DNA of 26,653 nt from a virus (IMGVR_UViG_3300030419_005890:1-26653); one strand, 5' to 3'; numbered from the stretch's first letter, positions 7,321-24,428 are shown. The notes: generated by a model not told the origin, from the sequence alone. Numbers and translations are program-made.

Positions 7321-7794
7321 ATGATTGAGAATACATTTACCAACGACGAGAGAATTCAAGAAAATAAACAAATTCATAGTAAGATCGGCAAGACATGGTT
7401 CTTTGACCTAGATGGCACCTTACTTAAGAACACTTCAAACGAAAAGTTAGACCAAATTATAAACAGGCATGGCAAGACCTCGCACCGCCAAGAAGAAGCC
7501 TTAATGTCTAGCAAACAGTTTCTAAAAAATATACCTAAATGCGATAAAGTTGTACTAACAACTGCGAGAGCAAATAGGCACAAAGACCACACAATCAAAG
7601 TATTAGAATATGTAGGTATTAAATACGATCAAATTATTTTTGATATTCCATCTGGAGCTAGAATTTTAGTCAATGATATTAAACCGAAAGGCGCTGTCAA
7701 AAACGAGCATGAGATTAAGACAGCTTTTGCAATTAACGTAAAAAGAAACGAAGGGCTTAAAAAGGAACACCTTAATGAATATCTCAGAGTTTGA
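7321..7794 (+). CDS. HAD-superfamily phosphatase-like protein
   Basis: A 157-aa HAD hydrolase. Motif I is FFDLDGTLL (nucleophile D29, acid/base D31); motif II is VVLTTARAN with its Thr; and the C-terminal acidic motif is ILVNDIKPKG. The LTTAR motif and compact size (minimal cap) resemble polynucleotide 3'-phosphatase-like or capsule-type small HAD phosphatases. The substrate cannot be named. Its place at the head of the operon carrying thyX, purS and ppa fits nucleotide or sugar-phosphate dephosphorylation. It is the first gene after the promoter at 7277-7305, with almost no leader. Confidence 0.85.
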   Translation: MIENTFTNDERIQENKQIHSKIGKTWFFDLDGTLLKNTSNEKLDQIINRHGKTSHRQEEALMSSKQFLKNIPKCDKVVLTTARANRHKDHTIKVLEYVGIKYDQIIFDIPSGARILVNDIKPKGAVKNEHEIKTAFAINVKRNEGLKKEHLNEYLRV

Positions 7795-8885: not shown

Positions 8886-9225
8886 AAGGACTGTAATATA
8901 TGCAATTGCTTGTTTCTTGTTTGGATGGCTGCTAGTTACTACTGTATCTGGACAAAGCAAAGGAGTCTTTGACCCCGATGTCGAACTCAAAATACCGGGC
9001 TTAGTTTGTCCTTCTTGCGCTATCGGTATTAAAAATGGATTTAAAAAAACTAACTTAACTAAAACAATTAAGTTCGATGTTAAAAAAGAAATATGCTTAA
9101 TAGAATTTATAAGCATAGAAATTCATCCATCTCAGATGAGAAAAATTGTTAAAAATGCTGGCTACGAATTAAAATCTATAAAGTGGTTAAAAGACAAGAA
9201 ACCTAATAGATATAATAAGCCGTGA
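8878..9225 (+). CDS. Exported/membrane-anchored heavy-metal-associated (HMA) domain protein
   Basis: A 115-aa product from ATG 8878, which overlaps the purS stop by 8 nt. An upstream GTG at 8848 is possible but less likely. An N-terminal hydrophobic segment (VIYAIACFLFGWLLVTTVSG) acts as signal peptide or anchor. It is followed by an HMA-type ferredoxin-like domain with GLVCPSC (C44-P-S-C47), the soft-metal site of MerP/CopZ/Atx1, and the terminal pattern MRKIVKNAGYEL. The CxxC would bind Cu(I), Zn, Hg or similar outside the cytoplasm. A metal-handling gene between purS and ppa has no obvious metabolic link, so the cargo and partner are unknown. Confidence 0.8.
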   Translation: MNKRTVIYAIACFLFGWLLVTTVSGQSKGVFDPDVELKIPGLVCPSCAIGIKNGFKKTNLTKTIKFDVKKEICLIEFISIEIHPSQMRKIVKNAGYELKSIKWLKDKKPNRYNKP

Positions 9226-9758
9226 ATTTAGTTAACGATATACCAATAACAAACGACGATTTCCAACATATATCATGTGTTGTAGAAATACCAAAAGGAA
9301 CTAATACAAAATATGAGTACAATGAAAAGTATAATATTTTTGAATTAGAGAGATGTCTTGTTTCGTCATTACAGTACCCGATAAATTATGGATTTGTGAC
9401 TCAGACGTATGCACTAGACAACGATCCCCTTGATGTTCTGATATTTAATCATGACCCTATCGACAGAGGTAGTCTAGTGAGGTGTAGGCCACTTGGGGTA
9501 CTCGACTTCGTAGACGACGAAGAAATCGATTACAAGCTAATTGTGGCCCCGCATTGGTCACCTCTGGACAGGTATAGCACCTTGGATGGCATAGAAGATA
9601 GTCACCTAAAGATATTTAAACAGTTTTTTAGAATTTATAAAATAGATCGAAGTTCCTCTACTAAAGTAGGAGAATGGAAAAATGGAAAGAAAGCTATGTC
9701 AGTTGTAAAACACGCACACGATAGATGGAAGGAGAGAATGCCTTATGGGAATGTTTGA
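9222..9758 (+). CDS. ppa: Inorganic pyrophosphatase, family I
   Basis: Hydrolyses pyrophosphate to phosphate, which pulls polymerisation and activation reactions forward. It starts at GTG 9222 in a 4-nt GTGA overlap. Active-site residues match E. coli Ppa: E22, K30 and E32 (PKGTNTKYE), R44, the DNDPLD loop (D66, D68, D71), and D98/D103/K105 (VDDEEIDYK). YPINYGFV is also present. At 178 aa it is the normal bacterial size. A phage-borne pyrophosphatase is uncommon. Here it could remove pyrophosphate from DNA replication and from the NDP-sugar and cytidylyl-transfer reactions encoded at 17-21 kb. Confidence 0.96.
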   Translation: MNLVNDIPITNDDFQHISCVVEIPKGTNTKYEYNEKYNIFELERCLVSSLQYPINYGFVTQTYALDNDPLDVLIFNHDPIDRGSLVRCRPLGVLDFVDDEEIDYKLIVAPHWSPLDRYSTLDGIEDSHLKIFKQFFRIYKIDRSSSTKVGEWKNGKKAMSVVKHAHDRWKERMPYGNV

Positions 9759-11713: not shown

Positions 11714-11832
11714 GCCCATGCTCTATATGCAAAAAGGTTTTTGAAGAAATAAACTTGACATGGAAGCAAGTTAGAGGTAAGATAAAACTATATTGTAATG
11801 AGTGCCTTAGCAAAAGCAAAAAAAGTAGATAA
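11710..11832 (+). CDS. Zinc-ribbon microprotein
   Basis: A 40-aa product with two CxxC knuckles, PCSIC (residues 4-7) and YCNEC (29-32), spaced like a treble-clef or zinc-ribbon fold, and a basic tail (SKSKKSR). It starts in an ATGA overlap with the DUF2384 gene, and its 3' end overlaps the cupin gene by 35 nt. A promoter for the cupin lies inside it. Its role is unknown; small phage zinc fingers often bind nucleic acid or host proteins. Confidence 0.75.
   Translation: MSPCSICKKVFEEINLTWKQVRGKIKLYCNECLSKSKKSR
11755..11783 (+). promoter_or_regulatory. Promoter inside the zinc-ribbon ORF, for the cupin gene
   Basis: A consensus TTGACA (11755-11760), a 17-bp spacer, and TAAGAT (11778-11783). 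The expected start near 11790 is about 8 nt before the cupin ATG at 11798. It lies entirely in the coding sequence of the preceding microgene. Confidence 0.55.
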
Positions 11833-12184
11833 AGATTGGGGCTATGAAATTTGGATGGCCAATAACGAAAAAGAGAATTATTGTGGAAAAATCTTATACA
11901 TTAAATTCGGTCATTCAACCTCAATGCACTTTCACCAGAAAAAGCATGAGACCTTTTACATCCTAGAAGGAGCTTTGGATGTAGAGATTATTGACACTAT
12001 CACTACGGATAAATACGTAAAGACTATCAATGAGGGAGAAGTATTTGTTCTAGATAGATTGATGCCTCACAGGCTAGTACCAAAAGGTGGAGATGTTAAA
12101 TTTGTAGAGATTAGTACTTTTCACGAAGATAGCGATAGTTACCGAGTTTATCGCGAAGCTCCTAAGCAACTTTCAGTTACATAA
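11798..12184 (+). CDS. Cupin-domain protein (sugar isomerase-like)
   Basis: A 128-aa single cupin barrel. It begins KDWGYEIWMANNE, as in mannose-6-phosphate isomerase-type cupins. The metal ligands are in motif 1 (HFHQKKHETF: H44, H46, E51) and motif 2 (MPHRLVP: H91), so a divalent metal is expected. Related stand-alone cupins act on phosphosugars or NDP-sugars. With the glycan genes further downstream, a sugar substrate is plausible but unproven. It has its own promoter inside the preceding ORF. Confidence 0.88.
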   Translation: MSALAKAKKVDKDWGYEIWMANNEKENYCGKILYIKFGHSTSMHFHQKKHETFYILEGALDVEIIDTITTDKYVKTINEGEVFVLDRLMPHRLVPKGGDVKFVEISTFHEDSDSYRVYREAPKQLSVT

Positions 12185-12868: not shown

Positions 12869-12944
12869 GCCCCGATGGCCGAATGGATAAGGCAACAGCC
12901 TTCTAAGCTGTAGATTCTAGGTTCGAATCCTAGTCGGGGTACCA
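12869..12944 (+). tRNA. tRNA-Arg (anticodon UCU), CCA encoded
   Basis: A full cloverleaf can be folded. The acceptor is GCCCCGA/TCGGGGT (12869-12875 with 12934-12940, first pair G-U). The D stem is GCC/GGC. The anticodon stem ACAGC/GCTGT has loop CTTCTAA, giving TCT at 12902-12904. The T stem is CTAGG/CCTAG with loop TTCGAAT. The discriminator is A12941 and CCA follows at 12942-12944. It decodes AGA, a codon used freely in this AT-rich genome. The 5' leader CATGGT is complementary to the 3' ACCATG. Confidence 0.95.
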
Positions 12945-14226: not shown

Positions 14227-14717
14227 TGAAAATAGATTTAACAGAGTCTACTCAAGCCCATATAAATTTCGCGGGACACGCTAAAGTCTCTATAGTAGGC
14301 GACAGCGCCGAATACAATGTTCGTTGGTTTAGAAGGAGAAAGGTCTCAGAGGATTATGATGAGATCGGCAGAATGGATTTAACCAATGGCCGCTGGGGAT
14401 CTTTCCCCTTTGAGGACATAGAGCAATGGAAGATAGAGTTTTGGCATGGAGACGAGCAGCAAATCTTATTTGACAATCATTTAGCAAATAAACCAGTTAT
14501 ATTAATAGCTAAAACAAAAACAAATAAAGTAGGTAAGAGTGTAGACTTTGACAAAATAAAAGAATACTGCACAAGCAAAGTAAATGAATTTAATTGTGAT
14601 TTAAAAGTATACTTTAAAGAAAGTTGTAAGTTTGATTTTACTAATTTAAATTTTAGCCCACTCAGGCTTAATGACGACATACCAGACATGTACTACGGTT
14701 TAGAAAAGGAGTTTTAA
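14226..14717 (+). CDS. Phage protein, unknown
   Basis: A 163-aa product, beta-rich at the N-terminus (KVSIVGDSAEYNVRWFRRRK, GRWGSFPFEDIEQWKIEFWH) and alpha/beta afterwards (KPVILIAKTKTN, LKVYFKESCKFDFTNLNF). No recognised family or catalytic motif. Its stop overlaps the start of the 2OG-oxygenase gene, so it opens the surface-modification gene string and may be a partner of that enzyme. Confidence 0.8.
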   Translation: MKIDLTESTQAHINFAGHAKVSIVGDSAEYNVRWFRRRKVSEDYDEIGRMDLTNGRWGSFPFEDIEQWKIEFWHGDEQQILFDNHLANKPVILIAKTKTNKVGKSVDFDKIKEYCTSKVNEFNCDLKVYFKESCKFDFTNLNFSPLRLNDDIPDMYYGLEKEF

Positions 14718-15394
14718 TGGAGAATTTAATTTACAGCAGAGACGAAGCTTTACCAAAAGACTTTTGTAATTTTGTTATAAAAAAATTCGAAGAGTCTAAT
14801 AACCAAATGGATGGCATCTCAGGAGGTGGAGTCAATAGAAAAGTAAAAGATTCCAGAGACTTAATGTTGACTACTCAACTCAATGATAAAGACTGGCAAT
14901 ACATATACGATTACTTAAGAGAAGACTTGTTGCACTCGATGGTCGAATATATGCGTATGTATCCCTTTTTAGTAGGAACGCCAGAGCATGAATTCTCAAG
15001 CGAACTTAGCTTAGTTAGGACTTGTCAAGGCAGATTTGGTGCTACACATATAGGCAACCCTCACATGCAAATGCAAAGATATATCGACCAAGGGGGTTAT
15101 CATGCTTGGCATTATGAGAACGAAGTCACAGAAGAATCTATGAAAATGAGGCAGATGGCTTTTATGTGGTATCTTAATGACGTTTTTGATGGAGGAGAAA
15201 CAGAGTTCAAATACCAAGACATTAAAGTTGAGGCTAGAGCGGGCCGCGCTGTTATTTTCCCTGCGTTTTGGACTCATGTACATAAAGGTCACAAACCCAA
15301 TAAAGAACAGAGTAAATACATAGTTACTGGTTGGATTGAAAGAATTGAGCCAGAGAATGTTTCGAGAGAGCTTTCCGAAGATTTTTTTGTGTGA
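14717..15394 (+). CDS. 2-oxoglutarate/Fe(II) oxygenase (prolyl-4-hydroxylase-like)
   Basis: A 225-aa double-stranded beta-helix dioxygenase. The core motif YHAWHYENE gives the first metal ligands H132 and E134, a Glu variant of the usual HxD. The sequence MAFMWYLNDVFDGGETEF is the typical DxxGGETxF strand. FPAFWTHVHKG supplies the distal H187, and K200 (or nearby) would bind 2-oxoglutarate. The family hydroxylates proteins or small molecules. Such enzymes are common in marine phages, with mostly unknown substrates. Here it heads the glycan island, and a degenerate paralogue lies at 19344. Confidence 0.9.
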   Translation: MENLIYSRDEALPKDFCNFVIKKFEESNNQMDGISGGGVNRKVKDSRDLMLTTQLNDKDWQYIYDYLREDLLHSMVEYMRMYPFLVGTPEHEFSSELSLVRTCQGRFGATHIGNPHMQMQRYIDQGGYHAWHYENEVTEESMKMRQMAFMWYLNDVFDGGETEFKYQDIKVEARAGRAVIFPAFWTHVHKGHKPNKEQSKYIVTGWIERIEPENVSRELSEDFFV

Positions 15395-17049
15395 AGGTAT
15401 TAAAGCATAGTTCTCCTATAATAATTCCAGCCTCTAGGTTTAGCAACTTAGAGGATTATTTATCTTCATTATCTAAGTCTAGCAGGCAAGACTTAAAAAA
15501 GACATTAGATTTTAATAAAGATCTAAATTACAAAAAAGTTGATTTTAACCCAGAGCAATGTAGGAACTATATGGACTTATGGGCTAGATGCAACAACTGG
15601 AGTTGGGGAGATTGGTATTCAGACAGAGAGCTTCAAAGCTTGCACGACAGAGGTATACTACAGTGTTTTAGTTGTGGTATAGCATATCATTTTGTTTTAA
15701 AGTGGGACAACTACATATATTGTAATGCTCCGCTTTACGATACTGATTCTTGTAGGAGAGCAGAGGTTTCCAAATGGATGTGGGTTAAACTTATTGAGTA
15801 TTGTATTGAGAATCAATGGGTAGACTATATTGATTTAATGGGGCCGGAAAACCTCAAAACTTTCGGTGAAGTAATTTCAAATAGACAACACACAAGCGAG
15901 TCCGGAGACTTCGGCTATAAATGGAAGTTTGTCCCTAAAGCTATAAAAGAAGGACAGGACAAAAGTCTGAATCACCTAGAAATTGTTTCTGATGAAACTT
16001 TTGTCTGGAAAGGTATTCATCTTCCCCCTAGGCCTACTAAACTTTTAGTGGTAGCTCATCCAGATGACGAAGCTATATTTTTTGGCGACTGGTTACTTGA
16101 AAACGCACATGAAACTAAAGTGGTTTCGCTGACAGCCTCAATGGACTATGGTATATGGCACAAAGAAAGGCATGAGACTAGGTATTATGAGTTTCAAAAT
16201 TGCATGAAAAAAGCTGGAGTGAAATACTTCGAGTGTTTAGGTATGGAAACTCCTACTCTAAACCCTCTTCAATACAGAGATGATTATAAAAATGTTTTAA
16301 AAAGAGTTAGCTGGGAAACAGACTGGCGACAAATAGTGACTCACAATCGACATGGGGAATACGGACACATGCAGCATGTGGAAACACATGAGCTAGTAAG
16401 AGACATTTTCCCAAAAGATAAGATATATGTTTATAAAAATTCAAAAGAAAAATTATCAACAGAAAGAAAACAAATACTACTAGATGAGTATCCCAGTCAG
16501 CAAAAGTATTGCATAGATGAAATAAGAACTAGCGAGTGGACAGGTTCCGATTGGTACAAGCATACTGTTGGTAAAAACATGATTGACTACGAGTCTTTAG
16601 AAAAATTAACAGAGTCTAAAAATTCTTTACTAATAACTCTTTATTGGGGAGGTCCAGTAGACCATTATACTTTCGATATGATACAAGGGCTATCCAGCGA
16701 GCTAAAACATAGAGGCCACCAAGCTGTGATATCAAGAGTACTAGAGAGTTGGCCTTGGGAAAAAGATATATTAATGGTCTTTAGAAAAGAAGATGCTGTA
16801 GAATGTATTAACAAAGGCCTCCAATTCGTTTTCATGATTAACGATGAGGTCTTATTGAATGAACAAAACTTTGAAGAATACAGAGAAATTGTTGATAAAT
16901 CAGTAAAGAGTTTCACTCAAACTTGGAAGACAAGAAACTTAATAGGAGACAGAATAAATATAGCATGGATTCCTAGACATAGAGGTTGGTATACATTGAT
17001 TAGAAAAATAGAATCACATTTATTTATGGGGCTAGTTAGCAATGATTAA
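15391..17049 (+). CDS. Three-part protein: GNAT-like / PIG-L (LmbE) deacetylase / C-terminal unknown domain
   Basis: A 552-aa product from GTG 15391 (GTGA overlap). Residues ~1-205 resemble a FemAB/BioF2-type GNAT acyltransferase (SSRQDLKKTLDF, YHFVLKWDNYIYCNAPLYD, YIDLMGPENLKTFG). Residues ~215-385 are a PIG-L/LmbE zinc deacetylase: VVAHPDDEAIFFG (H223, D225, D226) and HNRHGEYGHMQH (distal ligand H326 or H329). That family removes acetyl from N-acetylglucosamine-type sugars. Residues ~410-552 (SLLITLYWGGPVDHYTFDMI onward) look like a Rossmann or glycosyltransferase-type half domain that I cannot name. Acyl transfer plus deacetylation in one chain suggests swapping of an N-acyl group on an amino sugar. 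Confidence 0.85.
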   Translation: MKVLKHSSPIIIPASRFSNLEDYLSSLSKSSRQDLKKTLDFNKDLNYKKVDFNPEQCRNYMDLWARCNNWSWGDWYSDRELQSLHDRGILQCFSCGIAYHFVLKWDNYIYCNAPLYDTDSCRRAEVSKWMWVKLIEYCIENQWVDYIDLMGPENLKTFGEVISNRQHTSESGDFGYKWKFVPKAIKEGQDKSLNHLEIVSDETFVWKGIHLPPRPTKLLVVAHPDDEAIFFGDWLLENAHETKVVSLTASMDYGIWHKERHETRYYEFQNCMKKAGVKYFECLGMETPTLNPLQYRDDYKNVLKRVSWETDWRQIVTHNRHGEYGHMQHVETHELVRDIFPKDKIYVYKNSKEKLSTERKQILLDEYPSQQKYCIDEIRTSEWTGSDWYKHTVGKNMIDYESLEKLTESKNSLLITLYWGGPVDHYTFDMIQGLSSELKHRGHQAVISRVLESWPWEKDILMVFRKEDAVECINKGLQFVFMINDEVLLNEQNFEEYREIVDKSVKSFTQTWKTRNLIGDRINIAWIPRHRGWYTLIRKIESHLFMGLVSND

Positions 17050-17920
17050 AATAGAAAAAAATAAAAAATATTTAGTGACAGGAGGTAGCGGATTCCTAGG
17101 TCAAGAGCTTATAAAGAGAATCTTAGATCAAGGAGGCAAGGTAGTTATAGTGGCCAGAAACGAAGGAGAGTTGATCAAAACTAAACAGAAGTTCTTGAGC
17201 GAAACCTGTCGTTGGCCAGATATAGAATACTACACAGGCGACATAGCTGACAAGTTTACGCTAAGGAGGTTTAGAGATATACAAGGCATTTTTCATTTAG
17301 CTGCGTTCAAGCACGTTGGACTAGCGGAAACTCAAGCCAGAGAATGCACCCTCTCCAATGTTTTAGGTTCACTAAACGTTTTAGAACATGCGGCGGAAAC
17401 AGGAGTAGAATTTGTATTGGGCATCAGCACTGACAAAGCAGCTCAAGTTAAGGGAGTTTATGGAGCCTCGAAGTTAATAATGGAAAGGCTTTTTGCTCAG
17501 TTTGAGAAAGATTTCCCAGAGATTAAGTTTCGCACAGTCCGATACGGTAATGTTTTATACTCAACAGGATCAGTTCTCTGTAAATGGAGAGAGCTACTTA
17601 AAGAAGGCAAGGAGGTCATAGTTACTGAGGCAGGAGCCACTAGGTTCTTTTGGACTATAGATCAAGCGGTTGACTTGATTTTCGATTGCATGGAAAACGC
17701 TATCGACTGTGTTCCTTATTTACCAGAGATGAAGTCAATGAGTATTGGTAATCTTCTAGAAGCAATGGCATCTAAGTATTTACCAAAAGGAGCTGAACTT
17801 AAAATCGAATCTATTGGTCTTCAACCGGGAGAGAATCTTCACGAAAGAATACTTGAAGATGGCCCAGCGTCCGACGAAGTTCAAGAGTTTACAGTAGAGG
17901 AGATAAAAGAGCTTATATGA
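17042..17920 (+). CDS. NAD(P)-dependent sugar-nucleotide 4,6-dehydratase (PseB/CapD-like)
   Basis: A 292-aa short-chain dehydrogenase/epimerase. It has a Rossmann loop TGGSGFLGQ (13-21), the catalytic motif STDKAAQVKGVYGASK (S129/T130, D131-K132, Y140, K144), VRYGNVLYSTGSV, TRFFWTIDQAVDLI and GLQPGENLHE. The last four are the signature of inverting UDP-GlcNAc 4,6-dehydratases (PseB, FlaA1, CapD) rather than of simple 4-epimerases. It would make a 4-keto-6-deoxy sugar nucleotide, the first step toward pseudaminic acid or bacillosamine-type sugars. It is somewhat shorter than PseB at the C-terminus. It overlaps its neighbours by 8 and 4 nt. Confidence 0.9.
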   Translation: MIKIEKNKKYLVTGGSGFLGQELIKRILDQGGKVVIVARNEGELIKTKQKFLSETCRWPDIEYYTGDIADKFTLRRFRDIQGIFHLAAFKHVGLAETQARECTLSNVLGSLNVLEHAAETGVEFVLGISTDKAAQVKGVYGASKLIMERLFAQFEKDFPEIKFRTVRYGNVLYSTGSVLCKWRELLKEGKEVIVTEAGATRFFWTIDQAVDLIFDCMENAIDCVPYLPEMKSMSIGNLLEAMASKYLPKGAELKIESIGLQPGENLHERILEDGPASDEVQEFTVEEIKELI

Positions 17921-18132
17921 GCAAAAAGAAACCAAAGACAAATAAGGGCTGGTATTATAAAAATGGTAAAAAAGTTTCCACTAAAGAGAAGCATAGCGAA
18001 ACTTATAGCAATGAAGTATATAAGTATGTTAAAGAAGGTGGAGATTTAGGTGGAGCAGGTAAAGGAGACGCAGATAGAACTTCCAACAGAAACGCTTACA
18101 GAGATAACTACGAGGAAATATTCAACAAATGA
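17917..18132 (+). CDS. Small basic phage protein with GKGD motif
   Basis: A 71-aa product, Lys-rich at the N-terminus (MSKKKPKTNKGWYYKNGKK). It ends in GGAGKGDADRTSNRNAYRDN followed by YEEIFNK. The GKGDxxR...Y..NYxxIF ending recurs in tiny T4-like phage ORFans. It is held by ATGA overlaps at both ends. Function unknown. Confidence 0.8.
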   Translation: MSKKKPKTNKGWYYKNGKKVSTKEKHSETYSNEVYKYVKEGGDLGGAGKGDADRTSNRNAYRDNYEEIFNK

Positions 18133-19133
18133 GAGTAGCCATCTGTTTTGCCGGTATGCCTTACTATATTAGGCAGAACAAAGATTATTGGCTAGAGCTT
18201 ATACATAGATACAGAGCTGATGTCTATGCTAGTCTTTGGGACGAAGAAAAAATTTACCAAGACGAAGACACTATAGATTATTTTAAAAAAGTTTATAACC
18301 CTGTTTCGATTGAAGCAGAAAACCAAAAAGCACTCATAAAAAGTTTCAGATTCTTAGCAGAAGAATACAAAAAATCTCCAGATTTTTTTGATGAACCAAA
18401 ACATTTTGCCCACATAAACTCCAGACTCTACTCTACTTTGTATAAAATATGGAGAGCAAATCTATTACCTTCTTTAGCTGGCAAGAAATATGATGTTATT
18501 GTTAGAGCAGAAACTTGCAGCTCATATCCCGATATGGAAATTGTTCAAGAAAATAATTTAAGCATACCTCATTGGCATCATATCTTCAATCTCGGAGGCT
18601 ATAACTCTAGCAATATAAATAATTGGTTAGCTTTTGGTCCTCCAGACATAATGGACTATTATAGTTCTTGCTTCTTAAAACTAAGGAAGTACTACGATGA
18701 GTGCTTCGCGCAGCCTGTAGAAAGCTTTCTAAACTATCATCTTTTTCAAAGGCCGAACATAGAACTCAGGCTATTTAACAGTAGGATATACAGAAAAGGA
18801 GTTTTGAATTGGAACGGCAAGCAGCAAGCCGACGACAACACCAACGAAGTATCTAAATCTGCTTGGTACATAGACGTAAAGAATCTAGGCAAAGACTTTG
18901 ATACATCCATATCCTCTCATGTAAATTCAAGAGATTTAGATTTACACGAGATGGAAACTGCTCCAATCGAAAATAGTTGGCCCAGAAAAGAAAACACTAA
19001 CAATCAAGAAGAGTCTGGATACCAAACAATTCACAAATTCTGCCCATACAACAAAGCTAAAAACGACAGCAACTGTGGGGTAGTTAAGCAGGATAAGTAT
19101 GGCAACTGGATACCAATATACTTGACTAAATAG
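18129..19133 (+). CDS. Glycosyltransferase-like protein
   Basis: A 334-aa product beginning MRVAICFAGMPYYIRQNKDY, then YRADVYASLWDEE. It continues with a helix (LYKIWRANLL) and a YDVIVRAETCSSYPDM stretch. This layout (AICxxGxPR, DVYxxxW, YDxVxRxRxD) is seen in uncharacterised viral and capsular glycosyltransferases with a GT-A-like fold. The usual acidic DxD is not obvious: the equivalent is ETCSSYPD. The last third is Asn-rich and includes a Cys-containing tail (FCPYNKAKNDSNCG). A surface-glycan role fits its neighbours. Activity is uncertain. Confidence 0.7.
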   Translation: MRVAICFAGMPYYIRQNKDYWLELIHRYRADVYASLWDEEKIYQDEDTIDYFKKVYNPVSIEAENQKALIKSFRFLAEEYKKSPDFFDEPKHFAHINSRLYSTLYKIWRANLLPSLAGKKYDVIVRAETCSSYPDMEIVQENNLSIPHWHHIFNLGGYNSSNINNWLAFGPPDIMDYYSSCFLKLRKYYDECFAQPVESFLNYHLFQRPNIELRLFNSRIYRKGVLNWNGKQQADDNTNEVSKSAWYIDVKNLGKDFDTSISSHVNSRDLDLHEMETAPIENSWPRKENTNNQEESGYQTIHKFCPYNKAKNDSNCGVVKQDKYGNWIPIYLTK

Positions 19134-19156: not shown

Positions 19157-19342
19157 ATGCCGCGAAAGAAAAAGGTGAAGTCTAGTATGGGCAAAAGGTA
19201 CGAAGCAGCCTTTGAGAAGATTTACAAAGAATACCCCTTATGGAAAAAACAAGCAATAGAAGAAGATTGTCCTAAAGTAACCAAACAATTAGCTCAAGAA
19301 GTCATAGAGCTTGCAGAGTCAGAAGATACGGAAGAATGGTAG
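19157..19342 (+). CDS. Small charged protein, unknown; possibly leaderless
   Basis: A 61-aa product, basic at the start (MPRKKKVKSSMGKRYEAAFE) and acidic at the end (EVIELAESEDTEEW). No family recognised. Two starts are possible. ATG 19157 sits at the predicted transcription start. ATG 19187 has AAGGTG 9-12 nt upstream and would give 51 aa. It is the first gene after the promoter at 19122-19150. Confidence 0.75.
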   Translation: MPRKKKVKSSMGKRYEAAFEKIYKEYPLWKKQAIEEDCPKVTKQLAQEVIELAESEDTEEW

Positions 19343-19343
19343 T

Positions 19344-19889
19344 ATGTATTATTTAGCAGATATAGATTCATTAGACCAAGAAGATAATAATTTAAAATTA
19401 AATGATTATTATGTTTTTAATAAAGCATTCACAGAAGAAGAATGTCTAAAAATAATTAGAGAGAATGAGGAGTCTGGCCAAGTAAGTTTCACTGACAATA
19501 ATTTTTGGATTTATGACAGACTATGCGATTTCGCAAGAGAAGCAAATAATAACTCTTGGAAGTTTAACATAAATGGAATTTCCGAACCAGCCGCACTTGA
19601 GTCTTTTGTTGAGAGAAGCTCGTATGCTCCAAGATCAGACACAGCACAAAACTTCTTTGATGATCGTAAGCAATATAGTAAGATTAGTTTTCATGTCTGT
19701 CTGTCTAAGCCTGAAGATTATGAAGGCGGAGAACATCTTATACATAATAGCGGTACTCCTGTCTACGCAAATAAAGAGCTTGGAACTTGCATATTTTTCC
19801 CTTCGTATATGATAAGCGGAGTAACTCCACTTACAAAAGGCAACAAACATTGGCTACGAGGCTTCTTTTTTGGACCGCATTTTAAGTAA
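19344..19889 (+). CDS. Degenerate 2OG-Fe(II) oxygenase-fold protein
   Basis: A 181-aa product from ATG 19344. Its upstream in-frame TTG lies inside the previous gene. The fold pattern of PiuC/prolyl-hydroxylase-like enzymes is plain: WKFNINGISEPAALESF, RKQYSKISFHVCLSKPEDYE, GGEHLI, GTCIFFPSYMISGVTPLTKG. The iron site is altered. Where YxxHxD is expected the protein reads YAPRSD (R97, D99), and where FPSxxxHxV is expected it reads FPSYMISGV (S158). Two of the three metal ligands are therefore missing, and the protein is probably not an Fe(II) oxygenase. It may be a binding protein or a regulator of the intact homologue at 14717. Confidence 0.82.
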   Translation: MYYLADIDSLDQEDNNLKLNDYYVFNKAFTEEECLKIIRENEESGQVSFTDNNFWIYDRLCDFAREANNNSWKFNINGISEPAALESFVERSSYAPRSDTAQNFFDDRKQYSKISFHVCLSKPEDYEGGEHLIHNSGTPVYANKELGTCIFFPSYMISGVTPLTKGNKHWLRGFFFGPHFK

Positions 19890-20845
19890 TGGCTGATCTT
19901 ATAGAATTCATATCTCAATCACTAGGCGACAACATAGCGTGGTCGCCTTATTGTTATGAATACCACAAGATTACCGGAAGAAAGGTAGTAGTAAAAACTA
20001 GATGGGCAGAATTATTTGACGATATAGAGGATAAAGTTAGATTCTATCCTTGTCAGAGTATTAGGCAATTCAATGAAGGAAAATCACACCCAAATGGTAT
20101 CCCAAAAGTTTTAGGTTTAGACCCAACTGCGCAGCATGAAGTAGACTGGAGGCCTCAAATAGTTAAGTCCGGTATGGGGCATATAGATAATCTTAAAAAA
20201 GTAAACTTTCATTTAAATCGTCAAACTCCGATCCAAAAACAAATATGCGAGCAGCTACGAATACCGTTTAAACAAATAGTACCTACTATATCATCTAAAA
20301 AAACAGAAGGATATAGTGCGCCAAAATCTAAATATGTTTGCATATCAGTACAAAGCACAAGTAAATGTAAATTATGGACTGAATCTGGTTGGGATAAAGT
20401 TGTAAGATTTTTAAAAACAAAAGGATATAAAGTCTTATGTATTGATCAAGATGAGTCTTGGGGCTGGAAAAACGACTTTAACTTCATACCAAAAAAAGCC
20501 GTCAATGAGACAGGAGACTTTCCAATACAAAAAAGAATTAAGCAAATAATGGGTTGCGAGTTTTTTATAGGGCTTAGTTCTGGTTTAAGTTGGCTGGCTT
20601 GGGCATTGGGCAAAAAGGTCGTGATGATTACTGGCTCTACTCTTGAAGTAAACGAGTTCGACTGTTTTAGAGTTCAGAATAAATCAGTCTGTCATGGTTG
20701 CCTTAATGATGAAGACCTAGACTCCTTTGAAGAAATAGCATGGAACTGGGCATACTGTCCAAGAGGTAAGAAATTCGAATGCAGAACTAAAATTTCTTTT
20801 GATATGGTAAAAGCAAAGATACTGGAGGCCATTAAAAGTGAATAG
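19889..20845 (+). CDS. TibC/BAHT-like autotransporter-type O-heptosyltransferase
   Basis: A 318-aa GT-B glycosyltransferase. KYVCISVQSTSKCKLW (148-163), GWDKVVRFLKTKGYKVLCID (167-186) and FFIGLSSGLSWLAWALGKKV (225-244) are the diagnostic blocks of the bacterial autotransporter heptosyltransferase family (TibC). The terminal cysteines CHGC (C268, C271), YCPRGKKFEC (C290, C298) match that family's four-cysteine iron site. Known members move heptose from ADP-heptose onto serines of autotransporter adhesins. The N-terminal beta-barrel part looks shortened compared with TibC. A LicD/nucleotidyltransferase fusion follows directly (8-nt overlap), and an HldE-like kinase lies 2.8 kb on. Confidence 0.88.
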   Translation: MADLIEFISQSLGDNIAWSPYCYEYHKITGRKVVVKTRWAELFDDIEDKVRFYPCQSIRQFNEGKSHPNGIPKVLGLDPTAQHEVDWRPQIVKSGMGHIDNLKKVNFHLNRQTPIQKQICEQLRIPFKQIVPTISSKKTEGYSAPKSKYVCISVQSTSKCKLWTESGWDKVVRFLKTKGYKVLCIDQDESWGWKNDFNFIPKKAVNETGDFPIQKRIKQIMGCEFFIGLSSGLSWLAWALGKKVVMITGSTLEVNEFDCFRVQNKSVCHGCLNDEDLDSFEEIAWNWAYCPRGKKFECRTKISFDMVKAKILEAIKSE

Positions 20846-21830
20846 CAAAGCTGTAAATATATGTCATTATATTTCAAATAAACTTCGATCAAGAAATATA
20901 GACATCTGGCTCGAATACGGTTCTGCACTTGGAGCGATAAGGGATGGAGGCATACCAGATGGAGATGACGATATTGATCTTGCTATATGGGAGAAAGATT
21001 GGGAATCTTTAGAAGAACTCCTTAATGAGCCTATACCATATTCTTGTCACTTTAAGTTTATTGGTTGTTACTCAGGTGGCTATTATCTCCACATAAAAGA
21101 GTCAGAAGGTGATAAGCCGTTCAAGATAGATATTTGGTCTTTCAACACGAACGACAGTCATGGTTGGGGAGGATCAACACAAATAAGGAGCGGAGCCTCT
21201 AATTACAGAAGAGCTTTTCGTAGTAAAGCTTATTACCAACAAAACCTTAAGACTGTACAATTTGAAGGCTTTGAATTTCTAGTGTCTAAGTATGCAGAAA
21301 AATATTTAGATTACTTATATAAAGACACGGGAGGTATGGGAACAGATTGGAGAACTACAGTCGTAAAATCAGATGAGGTGAGCAGTTGGGAGGGAGGCTT
21401 GAAATCTTATTCTTATAAAGATTCTATAACTGGATGTGCCGAAGGAGTCTTTGATCTTTTCCACAAGGGCCATGTTCGTCTTTTTAGGAAGATGAGAGAT
21501 ATATTTGATGTTGTAGTTGTAGCTGTCACACCAGATGAGATAGTAAAATCTTACAAGGAAGAGCCTATATTTGATTTCGATGAGAGAGTAGAGATGCTTG
21601 AGTCATGCAAATACGTTGATAGGGTTATATTACCAGCGGAAAACTGCATAACAACAATCAACTGGATGGAATCAAACGATATAGATTACATGGTTCATGG
21701 AGACACGGACGCAGAGTTTTTACTAAGGTGGTATTCAGAACCCATGAGTGAAAAAAGATTAGTTTTATTAAGCGAAACTAAGGACTACCATACAGAGGAC
21801 ATTAAATTACGACTTCGGAACAAAGGATAA
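20838..21830 (+). CDS. LicD-type transferase fused to a cytidylyltransferase
   Basis: A 330-aa product from GTG 20838. Residues ~1-175 are LicD-like: WLEYGSALGAIRDGGIPDGD followed by DDIDLAI, with the metal-binding acidic cluster at 43-47. LicD proteins attach phosphocholine or similar phospho-alcohols to glycans. Residues ~195-330 are a nucleotidyltransferase of the cytidylyltransferase superfamily: GVFDLFHKGHVRLFRK (HxGH at 209-212), VVVAVTPDEIVKSYK, DFDERVEMLESCKYVDRV, and the closing YHTEDIKLRL, which recalls the TxxIxxRL end of CTP:phosphoethanolamine/phosphocholine enzymes. The fusion would activate and transfer one phospho-alcohol. An HldE2-like sugar adenylyltransferase role for the second domain is the alternative. 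Confidence 0.88.
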   Translation: MNSKAVNICHYISNKLRSRNIDIWLEYGSALGAIRDGGIPDGDDDIDLAIWEKDWESLEELLNEPIPYSCHFKFIGCYSGGYYLHIKESEGDKPFKIDIWSFNTNDSHGWGGSTQIRSGASNYRRAFRSKAYYQQNLKTVQFEGFEFLVSKYAEKYLDYLYKDTGGMGTDWRTTVVKSDEVSSWEGGLKSYSYKDSITGCAEGVFDLFHKGHVRLFRKMRDIFDVVVVAVTPDEIVKSYKEEPIFDFDERVEMLESCKYVDRVILPAENCITTINWMESNDIDYMVHGDTDAEFLLRWYSEPMSEKRLVLLSETKDYHTEDIKLRLRNKG

Positions 21831-21833
21831 AAA

Positions 21834-22805
21834 ATGTATAAATACAAAGAAGCAGGAGTAGATATAGCTAAAGCAGATAGACTTACAGAAAGTATTTCTG
21901 GCTTAGTCGATAACATAGGGGGCTTCGCTGGCTTATATGACTTATGTGAAGAAAATTATTTAGTAGCGTCTACTGATGGGGTTGGAACTAAAATTCTTCT
22001 AGCTCAGGAATACAATAAGCTAGACGGTATTGGTATTGACTGCGTTGCAATGTGCGTTAATGACATTATATGCACAGGAGCGAAACCACTTTTCTTTTTA
22101 GACTACTTTTCTTCTGGTGTTATAGATGAGTCTGATTTCTTACAAGTTATAAACTCAATCAAGAGTGGTTGTAGTAACTACGGTATACCGCTAATAGGCG
22201 GCGAAACAGCAGAGCTACCAGCATTGGTATCCAGTAAGACTTTTGATGTAGCTGGCTTTTGTGTAGGTATTGTCAAAAAGAAAGATCTTATTGATGGTAG
22301 TAGCATCGAAAGCGGAGATCATGTAATAGCTTTCCCAAGCAACGGTTTTCACAGTAATGGCTATACTTTGATAAGAAAGGTTGTGCAAATAAGAAAGCAG
22401 TATTGCGATTCGGGCGACCCAAGATCCGACCAACAAGATGTTCAAAAACATATTGATGACTTGTTAAAGCCTACTGAAATATATGTATACAGACTAAGGC
22501 ATCTTTTAAATAAGTTTAAAATAAAAGGAGTAGCTCACATAACTGGAGGAGGATACAGTAATTTAAATAGAATCCTCCCGCAAGGTTTAGATGTCGAATG
22601 GAGAGACAACATCCCTCGCGCCCCTATATTTGACTCGATTCAGAAGTGGGGAGAAATATCAGATGAAGAAATGAAGTCTGTTTTTAATAATGGCATAGGT
22701 ATGTGTATGGTGGTTAGCTCAAGCGAGAAGGATAAGATAGCATCTGAAATTCCTTTAGATGGAGAAGCTTACCCTCACATAATCGAAGTTGGCCAAATAA
22801 AATAA
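21834..22805 (+). CDS. purM: Phosphoribosylformylglycinamidine cyclo-ligase (AIR synthetase)
   Basis: PurM converts FGAM plus ATP to aminoimidazole ribonucleotide, the step after the PurSLQ reaction. The 323-aa product has VASTDGVGTKILLA (ATP/phosphate loop), GIDCVAMCVNDIICTGAKPL, PLIGGETAELPAL, FPSNGFHSNGYTLIRK and AHITGGGYSNLNRILP, all PurM family signatures in the right order. The overall length is slightly short of the bacterial ~345 aa. It starts four bases after the LicD-fusion stop. Together with purS at 8625 it shows that at least two successive steps of purine synthesis are phage-borne. Confidence 0.96.
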   Translation: MYKYKEAGVDIAKADRLTESISGLVDNIGGFAGLYDLCEENYLVASTDGVGTKILLAQEYNKLDGIGIDCVAMCVNDIICTGAKPLFFLDYFSSGVIDESDFLQVINSIKSGCSNYGIPLIGGETAELPALVSSKTFDVAGFCVGIVKKKDLIDGSSIESGDHVIAFPSNGFHSNGYTLIRKVVQIRKQYCDSGDPRSDQQDVQKHIDDLLKPTEIYVYRLRHLLNKFKIKGVAHITGGGYSNLNRILPQGLDVEWRDNIPRAPIFDSIQKWGEISDEEMKSVFNNGIGMCMVVSSSEKDKIASEIPLDGEAYPHIIEVGQIK

Positions 22806-22810
22806 TTATT

Positions 22811-23170
22811 ATGTATCAATACAAAGCAAAGTTAGTTAAAGTAGTAGACGGTGATACAGTAGATGCGCTAATTGACTGCGGGTTCAGCACCTTTAAGAAA
22901 GAGCGTATTCGTTTGTACGGTATCAATACTCCAGAGTGCAGAACTAGAGACAAAGAAGAAAAGAAGCGAGGCCTAGCAGCTAAAGCAAGACTCAAAGAAC
23001 TCATAAAAGAAAATAAGAATGAGTTTATAGTTGAGACTAGGATAGACAAGAAGGGTAAGTTTGGCAGACTACTCGGTACTCTATTTAAAGAGATTGACTC
23101 GTTTGATAGCTTCAATGATATCCTAGTCAAAGAAGGACACGCCACAGAATACTTTGGAGGCAAGAGATGA
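22811..23170 (+). CDS. Staphylococcal-nuclease-like (thermonuclease) protein
   Basis: A 119-aa SNase/OB-fold protein. VKVVDGDTVDALID (the DGDT calcium loop), KERIRLYGINTPECR (catalytic Arg and the GIxTPE motif, with Asn where Asp is common) and KFGRLLGTLF (second catalytic Arg) are in order. It ends HATEYFGG. There is no signal peptide, so it acts in the cytoplasm. Possible roles are host DNA/RNA degradation or recombination processing. The Asp-to-Asn change in the metal loop also occurs in active relatives, so activity is likely but not certain. Confidence 0.93.
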   Translation: MYQYKAKLVKVVDGDTVDALIDCGFSTFKKERIRLYGINTPECRTRDKEEKKRGLAAKARLKELIKENKNEFIVETRIDKKGKFGRLLGTLFKEIDSFDSFNDILVKEGHATEYFGGKR

Positions 23171-23346
23171 AATTAAAGAGAGAAATAATTGACATACTCA
23201 ATAAGATACAAAAAGAAAATAAGCAAATAAACTTTGATAGTGATGCTGCTAGAGAAGGTATTGCAGATATTATAGCAAGGGATTTAAGTAGAAGAAAGTC
23301 ACGCCCACAATACCGACAATCTGACGCAGGGAGCTTAATATTCTAA
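23167..23346 (+). CDS. Small basic helical protein, unknown
   Basis: A 59-aa product (MKLKREIIDILNKIQKENKQ to SDAGSLIF) that starts in an ATGA overlap with the nuclease gene and ends in a TAATG overlap with the next microgene. It has a charged helix followed by a basic patch (RDLSRRKSRPQYRQ) that could contact nucleic acid. No family recognised. Confidence 0.75.
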   Translation: MKLKREIIDILNKIQKENKQINFDSDAAREGIADIIARDLSRRKSRPQYRQSDAGSLIF

Positions 23347-23435
23347 TGACAAAGAACCAAATAATAGGAGTTTGGATTTTAATTTTTTTAATAGTTATTC
23401 TTAATTGTGTTTTGGCGGCGAAGTATTTAGTATGA
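23346..23435 (+). CDS. 29-aa single-pass membrane microprotein
   Basis: MTKNQIIGVWILIFLIVILN followed by CVLAAKYLV. Almost the whole peptide is one transmembrane helix. It overlaps the preceding stop by one base, and its own stop overlaps the next start (ATGA at 23432-23435), which is strong positional evidence for translation. The function is unknown; phage peptides of this type often act at the inner membrane. Confidence 0.6.
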   Translation: MTKNQIIGVWILIFLIVILNCVLAAKYLV

Positions 23436-23647
23436 CATATAAAGAGTTATTATTTAAAATGGCCAAACTAGGGATGCTTACCCTATCAAATGATAAAGAT
23501 GGTAGGGGTTTATTTTGGGCTGGCATGAATAATTTAGAAGCTCTTGACAAAGAATTTAATTTAAAAGATTTTAATGTAGAGCTTCCTCCAGATAAAGAAT
23601 TCTATATAGACAAGCAAGGTCGCAAACAAGAGAAGCATAAAAGTTAA
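23432..23647 (+). CDS. Small phage protein, unknown
   Basis: A 71-aa product from ATG 23432; a TTG 27 nt upstream lies inside the membrane microgene and is rejected. It begins MTYKELLFKMAKLGMLTLSN and ends with a charged tail (DKQGRKQEKHKS). No domain recognised. It precedes the sugar-kinase gene by 13 nt. Confidence 0.8.
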   Translation: MTYKELLFKMAKLGMLTLSNDKDGRGLFWAGMNNLEALDKEFNLKDFNVELPPDKEFYIDKQGRKQEKHKS

Positions 23648-23660
23648 GTTTACAATATCT

Positions 23661-24428
23661 ATGAGTAAAGTATTAGTAGTAGGAGAGATTTGCGATGACA
23701 TATTTATTTATGGCTCCGCGTCTAGGCTTTGTCCAGATGTCCCTGCTCCCGTTTTCAAAGCTAATAAAGAAGTAAGGAGCAAAGGCATGGCTGGAAATAC
23801 TATCCGCAACCTAGAAGCATTAGGTTGTGAGGTAGACTCTATTACTCAAATAAATTCTATAACAAAAACTAGGTACGTCGATGAGAAACTGAATTATACC
23901 TTCCTTCGCGTAGATAAGGGGGAAGATAACATTGATACTTTTTATGAATATGGTGCTAACCTAATCATGGATGAAGAAATAGCAAAGTTTGATGCGGTAG
24001 TTATTAGCGACTATAATAAAGGGTTCCTTTCTGAAGAAGATATTACTCGTTTTTGTACAAATAATACGAACACGTTTTTAGATACTAAAAAGTGCATAGG
24101 TAATTGGTGTAAAGATGCAGCTTATATAAAAATAAATAGCCCAGAGTTTGAAGCTATTAAAAAGGACATCAATCCTAGAGGATGGGTTGATAAACTCATC
24201 GTAACCCTTGGTGACCAAGGTTGCATGATGATGAAAGAGAATGGCTTCCACTACTACACTACTGACAAAGTACCCGTGTTCGACTTGTCTGGAGCGGGAG
24301 ACTCTTTTCTTGCTGCCCTAGTTGCTAAACAACTTGAGACAAATAATATAGACGAAGCAATAAAATATTCTAACCAAAAAGCCTCTGAGATAGTACAACA
24401 AAGAGGGGTAAGTGTAATTAGTAAATGA
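23661..24428 (+). CDS. PfkB-family sugar kinase, HldE/RfaE domain-I-like
   Basis: A 255-aa ribokinase-fold enzyme. The N-terminus VLVVGEICDDIFIYGSASRL, with CPDVPAPV after it, follows the HldE (heptose-7-phosphate kinase) pattern VLVVGDxxxDxYxxGxxxRxxPExPxPV. The family glycine region is MAGNTIRNLEALG. VVISDYNKGFLS and the catalytic DLSGAGDSFLAALV (base D214) complete the set. It would phosphorylate a sugar phosphate, by analogy D-glycero-D-manno-heptose-7-phosphate at C1. It is about 60 residues shorter than HldE domain I and lacks the nucleotidyltransferase half; a similar domain is in the LicD fusion at 20838. The substrate is inferred. Confidence 0.87.
   Translation: MSKVLVVGEICDDIFIYGSASRLCPDVPAPVFKANKEVRSKGMAGNTIRNLEALGCEVDSITQINSITKTRYVDEKLNYTFLRVDKGEDNIDTFYEYGANLIMDEEIAKFDAVVISDYNKGFLSEEDITRFCTNNTNTFLDTKKCIGNWCKDAAYIKINSPEFEAIKKDINPRGWVDKLIVTLGDQGCMMMKENGFHYYTTDKVPVFDLSGAGDSFLAALVAKQLETNNIDEAIKYSNQKASEIVQQRGVSVISK

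Follow-up and report, generated by a model that had tools for sequence, protein, structure and literature searches.

The window analysed here is the whole of a 26,653-base virus record in IMG/VR (IMGVR_UViG_3300030419_005890:1-26653), and the stretch at about 14.2-24.4 kb within it is read, with somewhat better than even confidence, as part of a phage cassette of exchangeable genes for glycan decoration. Three of these genes, all on the plus strand and named here by their first base, are at issue: 19889 (19889..20845), which would encode a transferase using ADP-heptose, 20838 (20838..21830), which would encode a phospho-alcohol enzyme, and 23661 (23661..24428), which would encode an HldA-type kinase without its partner HldC. 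Since the window also encodes DNA polymerase, class I ribonucleotide reductase, thymidylate synthase and rIIA, the record is probably part of the genome of a T4-like phage, a virus of bacteria.

The original prediction, made from the sequence alone, joined the three genes in a module that activates heptose and places it on protein. Its three open reading frames (ORFs) lie where it put them, and 19889 directly abuts the GTG-started 20838 with an overlap of 8 bases, while 19889 itself begins on the final base of the preceding stop codon (taATG). As the following shows, the transferase and the kinase of that module are retained, and are linked in other phages, but HldC, HldD and GmhA are missing from the window.

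The Transferase 19889

By sequence and predicted fold, the 318-amino-acid product of 19889 belongs to the TibC/BAHT type, as predicted originally. In a profile search it matches TIGR04414 (E 5e-54, 183.6 bits), and in a sequence search it matches the TibC crystal structure, PDB 4rap, with 123.8 bits. When its AlphaFold model (pLDDT 85.9, pTM 0.86) is searched with Foldseek, TibC comes out on top (E 7e-22), followed by the ADP-heptose lipopolysaccharide (LPS) transferases WaaC and WaaF. The function of TibC depends on the catalytic base Asp-110 and on the donor-site residues Thr-226, Lys-230, Arg-286 and Trp-305 (PMC4358343); the base is retained in 19889 as D14, and the donor-site residues as T157, K161, R216 and W235. 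The iron-finger cysteines C268, C271, C290 and C298, which correspond to TibC positions 339, 342, 358 and 370, are kept in 46/46 homologues, and over the same viral and bacterial set the catalytic, donor and iron-finger positions are invariant or nearly so, with the arginine present in 38.

Several observations weigh against taking 19889 as a working enzyme of this kind. Its score falls just below the curated TIGR04414 cut-off of 200 bits (the BAHT of the relative L011 reaches 305.6 bits), its N-lobe residues 57-85 are poorly modelled, and the N-terminal beta-barrel (TibC 1-97) is missing, so that the ORF opens at the core and aligns from about TibC residue 100. Because removal of the barrel abolishes modification of TibA by TibC (PMC4358343), a core that lacks it may have no activity or work in another way, and because the barrel is absent, 19889 is filed as a BAHT-like core and not as a full BAHT. 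Phage TibC-like proteins as such are not new, since UniProt already names one protein of an uncultured phage Aah/TibC.

The Fusion Protein 20838

The original prediction took the nucleotidyltransferase domain of 20838 as the step that forms ADP-heptose. The domain itself is there (residues 202-293, Pfam CTP_transf_like, 2.7e-20), and it is preceded by an N-terminal half, not mentioned in that prediction, that matches LicD (PF04991, 3e-9, 37.7 bits against a cut-off of 22.6) over profile positions 3-53 of 227 only. Among families, glycerol-3-phosphate cytidylyltransferase (52.7 bits) and rfaE domain II (50.2 bits) score nearly equally. Among solved structures the best relative is ethanolamine-phosphate cytidylyltransferase (ECT) with 84.4 bits, followed by FKRP with 23.5 and 5x9q with 18.8. 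The last of these, entitled only 'putative cytidylyltransferase', we take to be an HldC; to it the HldC of the relative L009 scores 97.5 bits. When the motifs of HldE domain II and HldC (NGCFD..HxGH, KGxxRPIN, GxDW) are sought in 20838, the full set is not there, and the KGxxRPIN and GxDW of phage HldCs are absent. In L009, furthermore, a 70% identical copy of 20838 is followed 0.5 kb on by a separate protein that scores 163.5 bits for rfaE domain II and lies 130 bases upstream of the kinase.

The preference for ECT, the missing HldC motifs, the fusion to LicD and the true HldC beside it in L009 together set 20838 apart from HldE domain II, and the ADP-heptose-forming role first proposed for it is not supported. 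A likeness to CTP:phosphoethanolamine enzymes, as seen here, is moreover an outcome that the original prediction itself had named as refuting it. Since L009 holds both the copy of 20838 and the separate rfaE domain II protein, 20838 most likely, as judged from sequence, works on its own, both activating a phospho-alcohol and transferring it. Its AlphaFold model (pLDDT 52) is too poor for use.

The Kinase 23661 and the Empty Slot Beside It

The best family for 23661 is rfaE domain I (TIGR02198), with 131.9 bits as compared to 49.4 bits for ribokinase, which confirms the predicted assignment to a kinase of the HldE domain-I type, and not to ribokinase. It matches phrog_8133 with an E-value of 6e-77, and its PfkB motifs GAGD, NxxE and KTR are invariant across 10 phage homologues. 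What counts against the assignment is that this short phage form, 255 amino acids in length, scores far under the TIGR02198 equivalog cut-off of 345.

In cyanomyoviruses, the kinases of phrog_8133 are 34-47% identical to 23661 and have as neighbours HldC (T4-GC 304), a HAD phosphatase (306) and a cupin (307), to which P-SSM2 adds an SDR (308) that scores 209.9 bits for ADP-heptose 6-epimerase. HldA relatives occur at at least 577 viral loci. Across 57 non-redundant viral HldA loci, HldC is found nearby in 27, as compared to 0/34 background loci around NrdA (p 1.4e-7), and cupin and HAD are found in 26/57 and 21/57, respectively, each with 0/34 in the background. The cupin tracks HldC, being present at 23 of the 27 HldA loci that have HldC and at 3 of the 30 that do not. 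Because GmhA was found in none of 17 phage records, the cupin is possibly an isomerase that takes its place, and for this role it is an attractive candidate.

The position at which relatives hold a nucleotidyltransferase corresponds in the window to 23170..23660 on the plus strand, where only an 80-amino-acid ORF (23405-23647) is found. The DNA of the window and of L009 is 89.6% identical from the SNase gene to the start of the L009 HldC, and the identity resumes at the kinase. The relative L008 shares both the 80-amino-acid ORF and the kinase with the window, but there a nucleotidyltransferase sits between them. In L093, where the BAHT is 74% identical to 19889 and has the same upstream neighbours, an HldC follows the SNase gene and is cut by the contig end. 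From these comparisons, the HldC slot beside the kinase is empty in the window. A search of the 26.7 kb fragment for HldC, HldD and GmhA, the last of which the original prediction had, together with GmhB, suggested looking for, found none, an absence that is provisional for a fragment of this length; from this follows that heptose activation is not encoded by the window record on its own. The missing genes may lie outside the fragment, which is a further point against reading the cassette as one without HldC.

BAHT and HldA Genes in Other Viral Contigs

A scan with 19889 alone for close relatives gave nothing, while a scan with an alignment as query gave BAHT relatives at 438 viral loci. In three contigs (L243:6471-8744, L251:1483-3759 and L256:6459-8744) BAHT, HldC and HldA, in this order, form a gapless operon in which the ends of neighbouring genes overlap. 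A GT4-like gene lies ahead of the operon, and terminase- and portal-like genes lie downstream of it, where the names GT4, terminase and portal come from sequence inspection. In L101 and L103 the HldA kinase abuts BAHT. Against a general link, BAHT is not enriched near HldA (3/57 loci as compared to 0/34 in the background, p 0.24), and the weight therefore rests on the gapless arrangements only, not on the co-occurrence statistic. Because of the three operons, the idea of a module for activation and heptosylation is right for some other phages, although it is incomplete in the window record. Long phage BAHT proteins are mostly fused to GT4, GT2 or FkbM domains, and several phage BAHTs are flanked by tail or structural genes; in the 170 kb relative G057 (L351:2988-8719), a 1526-amino-acid tail-fibre gene ends in the stop codon on which the BAHT gene begins. 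Among isolates, Microcystis phage Mel-JY01 carries a BAHT.

A recurrent cassette is seen in L195, L207, L227, L229, L230, L234, L236, L247 and L261, and in L002 and L004, with zinc alcohol dehydrogenase, a thiamine pyrophosphate enzyme (E1/transketolase-like), HldA, HldD, HldC, HAD phosphatase and cupin. In the searched records of this cassette GmhA is absent, and the cupin goes with HldC. BAHT relatives are also seen in L043 and L082, from metagenome-assembled genomes labelled Pacearchaeota and Nitrosotalea, where phage or binning contamination is possible.

Other Genes of the Window

The accessory genes, many of them for sugar chemistry, lie between the replication genes and rIIA, and those whose ends are joined here by two dots are on the plus strand. 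A PIG-L-type deacetylase whose N-terminal stretch is weakly GNAT-like (15391..17049; PF02585, 1.1e-13) belongs to the same cassette and is kept in L009 (86%) and L093. It is followed by a UDP-GlcNAc 4,6-dehydratase-like SDR of the PseB/FnlA type (17042..17920; PF02719, 1.7e-61; TIGR03589, 174.6 bits), which was considered as HldD and rejected, as it scores 27.1 bits for heptose_epim. The next member, at 18129..19133 (phrog_13607, 9.5e-12), is kept in L009 and L093, and is possibly a glycosyltransferase, a guess from context. A 2-oxoglutarate (2OG)-Fe(II) oxygenase-like gene (19311..19889; phrog_61, 1.7e-9, and PKHD-type models) is coupled to the BAHT start, and a second one is present at 14717-15394. 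Outside the cassette are a cupin from the family found in phage HldA-HldC cassettes (11798..12184; phrog_7851, T4-GC 307, 9.7e-28; 33-41% identity to cyanophage GC307) and a HAD-type phosphatase (7321..7794; Acid_phosphat_B, 1.5e-6) with weak likeness to phrog_1238, T4-GC 306 (E 0.0011).

An inorganic pyrophosphatase (9222-9758; PF00719, E 5.5e-44) could pull nucleotidyltransferase reactions. Within the sugar cassette there is also PurM (21834-22805; AIR synthase, 327 bits, above cut-off), present too in L008 with a SHMT-like gene close by, and a tRNA-Arg (tct) is found at 12869-12944. Promoter and terminator scans gave nothing above chance expectation. Models of defence systems assigned none of the cassette enzymes, and their sole match was a generic one for the 2OG oxygenase at 14717.

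Discussion

The reading preferred here, that of an exchangeable glycan-decoration cassette, implies the following chain of events. The TibC-type catalytic core of 19889 would most likely transfer heptose from ADP-heptose, in the D,D or the L,D form, to an acceptor, and the missing barrel would make this acceptor, or the oligomer, different from that of TibC. The product of 20838 would, most likely, make a CDP-alcohol of choline, ethanolamine or alditol type and transfer the phospho-alcohol to a sugar, outside heptose activation. The kinase 23661 would most likely phosphorylate a heptose-7-phosphate-like sugar at C1, as HldE and HldA do. Because the HldC that stands beside the kinase in relatives is missing, the activated sugar would have to be supplied by the host or by phage genes beyond the fragment. 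In sum, the cassette would probably re-decorate a surface glycan of the host or a virion protein.

Which of these is the acceptor can be considered further. That 19889 is a glycan transferase which caps LPS, capsule or O-antigen of the host, for instance to exclude other phages, has a reasonable chance of being right, though somewhat less than an even one. The PIG-L, UDP-GlcNAc dehydratase and LicD genes of the cassette are typical of surface glycans, genes of this sort have been read as O-chain modification in pelagimyophages (PMC7029224), and WaaC and WaaF come next after TibC in Foldseek; the iron finger and the TibC-type signature, on the other hand, separate 19889 from the LPS heptosyltransferases.

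That phage BAHTs instead O-heptosylate tail-fibre or other structural virion proteins, with later transferases extending the sugar, seems rather unlikely, even if it would account for the BAHT gene on the tail-fibre stop codon in G057, for BAHT-HldC-HldA operons adjoining structural and terminase- or portal-like genes, for the frequent fusions to GT4, GT2 or FkbM domains, and for the modification of protein Ser by TibC (PMC4358343). The cassette of the window is not beside structural genes, 19889 has no barrel, and AIDA repeats (PF16168) and the TIGR04415 acceptor were found in 0 phage records tested, in a test of limited sensitivity where a Pelosinus control was positive and the BAHT-bearing genomes of Pandoraea and Caballeronia were also negative. 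A wider proposal, which we regard as improbable, is that many phages have their own ADP-heptose supply (HldA, HldC, HAD phosphatase, HldD and a cupin possibly replacing GmhA), and that others O-heptosylate their own tail proteins with barrel-less or GT-fused BAHTs. Most doubtful of all is that 23661 and the C-terminal domain of 20838 jointly make ADP-heptose for 19889 to place on protein: the three genes do occur together in the window and in L011, the domain does score for rfaE domain II, and other phages do have BAHT-HldC-HldA operons, but the domain is nearer to the ethanolamine- or choline-phosphate and glycerol-3-phosphate cytidylyltransferases, is LicD-fused and lacks HldC motifs, L009 keeps a true HldC beside it, and in L011 another nucleotidyltransferase follows some 1.2 kb past the kinase.

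Published work mentions genes for LPS heptose in cyanophages (PMC7378029) and, in pelagimyophages, rfaE (PMC7029224), and our literature search found no report on protein heptosylation by phages. The LPS of marine Synechococcus, strain WH8102 included, is reported to be without heptose (PMC4515613). Phages that infect WH8102 (L006, that is Sf-CH5, as well as Sf-CH8 and Sf-FS3) nevertheless carry HldA-type genes, and Sf-CH5 and Sf-CH8 also HldC-type ones, which makes it a testable question what phage heptose genes are for. If phage BAHTs modify proteins of the virion or the host with heptose from ADP-heptose, the reach of protein O-heptosylation would grow from a group of bacterial adhesins to many environmental phages. 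If phages both supply ADP-heptose and O-heptosylate their tails, this would be virus-encoded protein O-glycosylation, possibly even in hosts with heptose-free LPS. The BAHT-HldC-HldA operon lets donor and enzyme be tested together in E. coli.

Comparison with Known Systems

With HldE domain I and HldA (TIGR02198), its top family, 23661 shares the N-terminal R(I/L)xPxxPxP signature and the GAGD motif, but it falls some 60 residues short of the 315 positions of the model, scores below the equivalog cut-off and has no HldC partner in the window. In the T4-GC 304-308 cluster of the cyanophages P-SSM2, S-CAM1, P-TIM68 and S-SM2, where HldC, HAD phosphatase, cupin and HldD stand together, the kinase (39-47% identity) and the cupin are homologous to those of the window and the nucleotidyltransferase is distantly similar, whereas the window has only part of this set, with its members lying apart. 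The product of 20838 resembles the LicD/FKRP phospho-alcohol transferases and the CCT/ECT-type cytidylyltransferases in that the LicD GS...DxDxD and the cytidylyltransferase HxGH regions occur in it, and differs from them in being a fusion of the two in a single protein encoded by a phage. In contrast to TibC and AAH, 19889 has neither the barrel nor an adjoining autotransporter, and its score is just under the curated cut-off of their family. It has in common with them the GT-B core, the catalytic Asp, the Thr, Lys, Arg and Trp of the donor site, the four iron-binding Cys and, in the predicted model, a thumb-like hairpin. Its residue at the stereoselectivity position is Ser, as in AAH, which takes both ADP-D,D- and ADP-L,D-heptose, and it is by the iron finger and the TibC-type signature that it is told apart from the heptosyltransferases of LPS.

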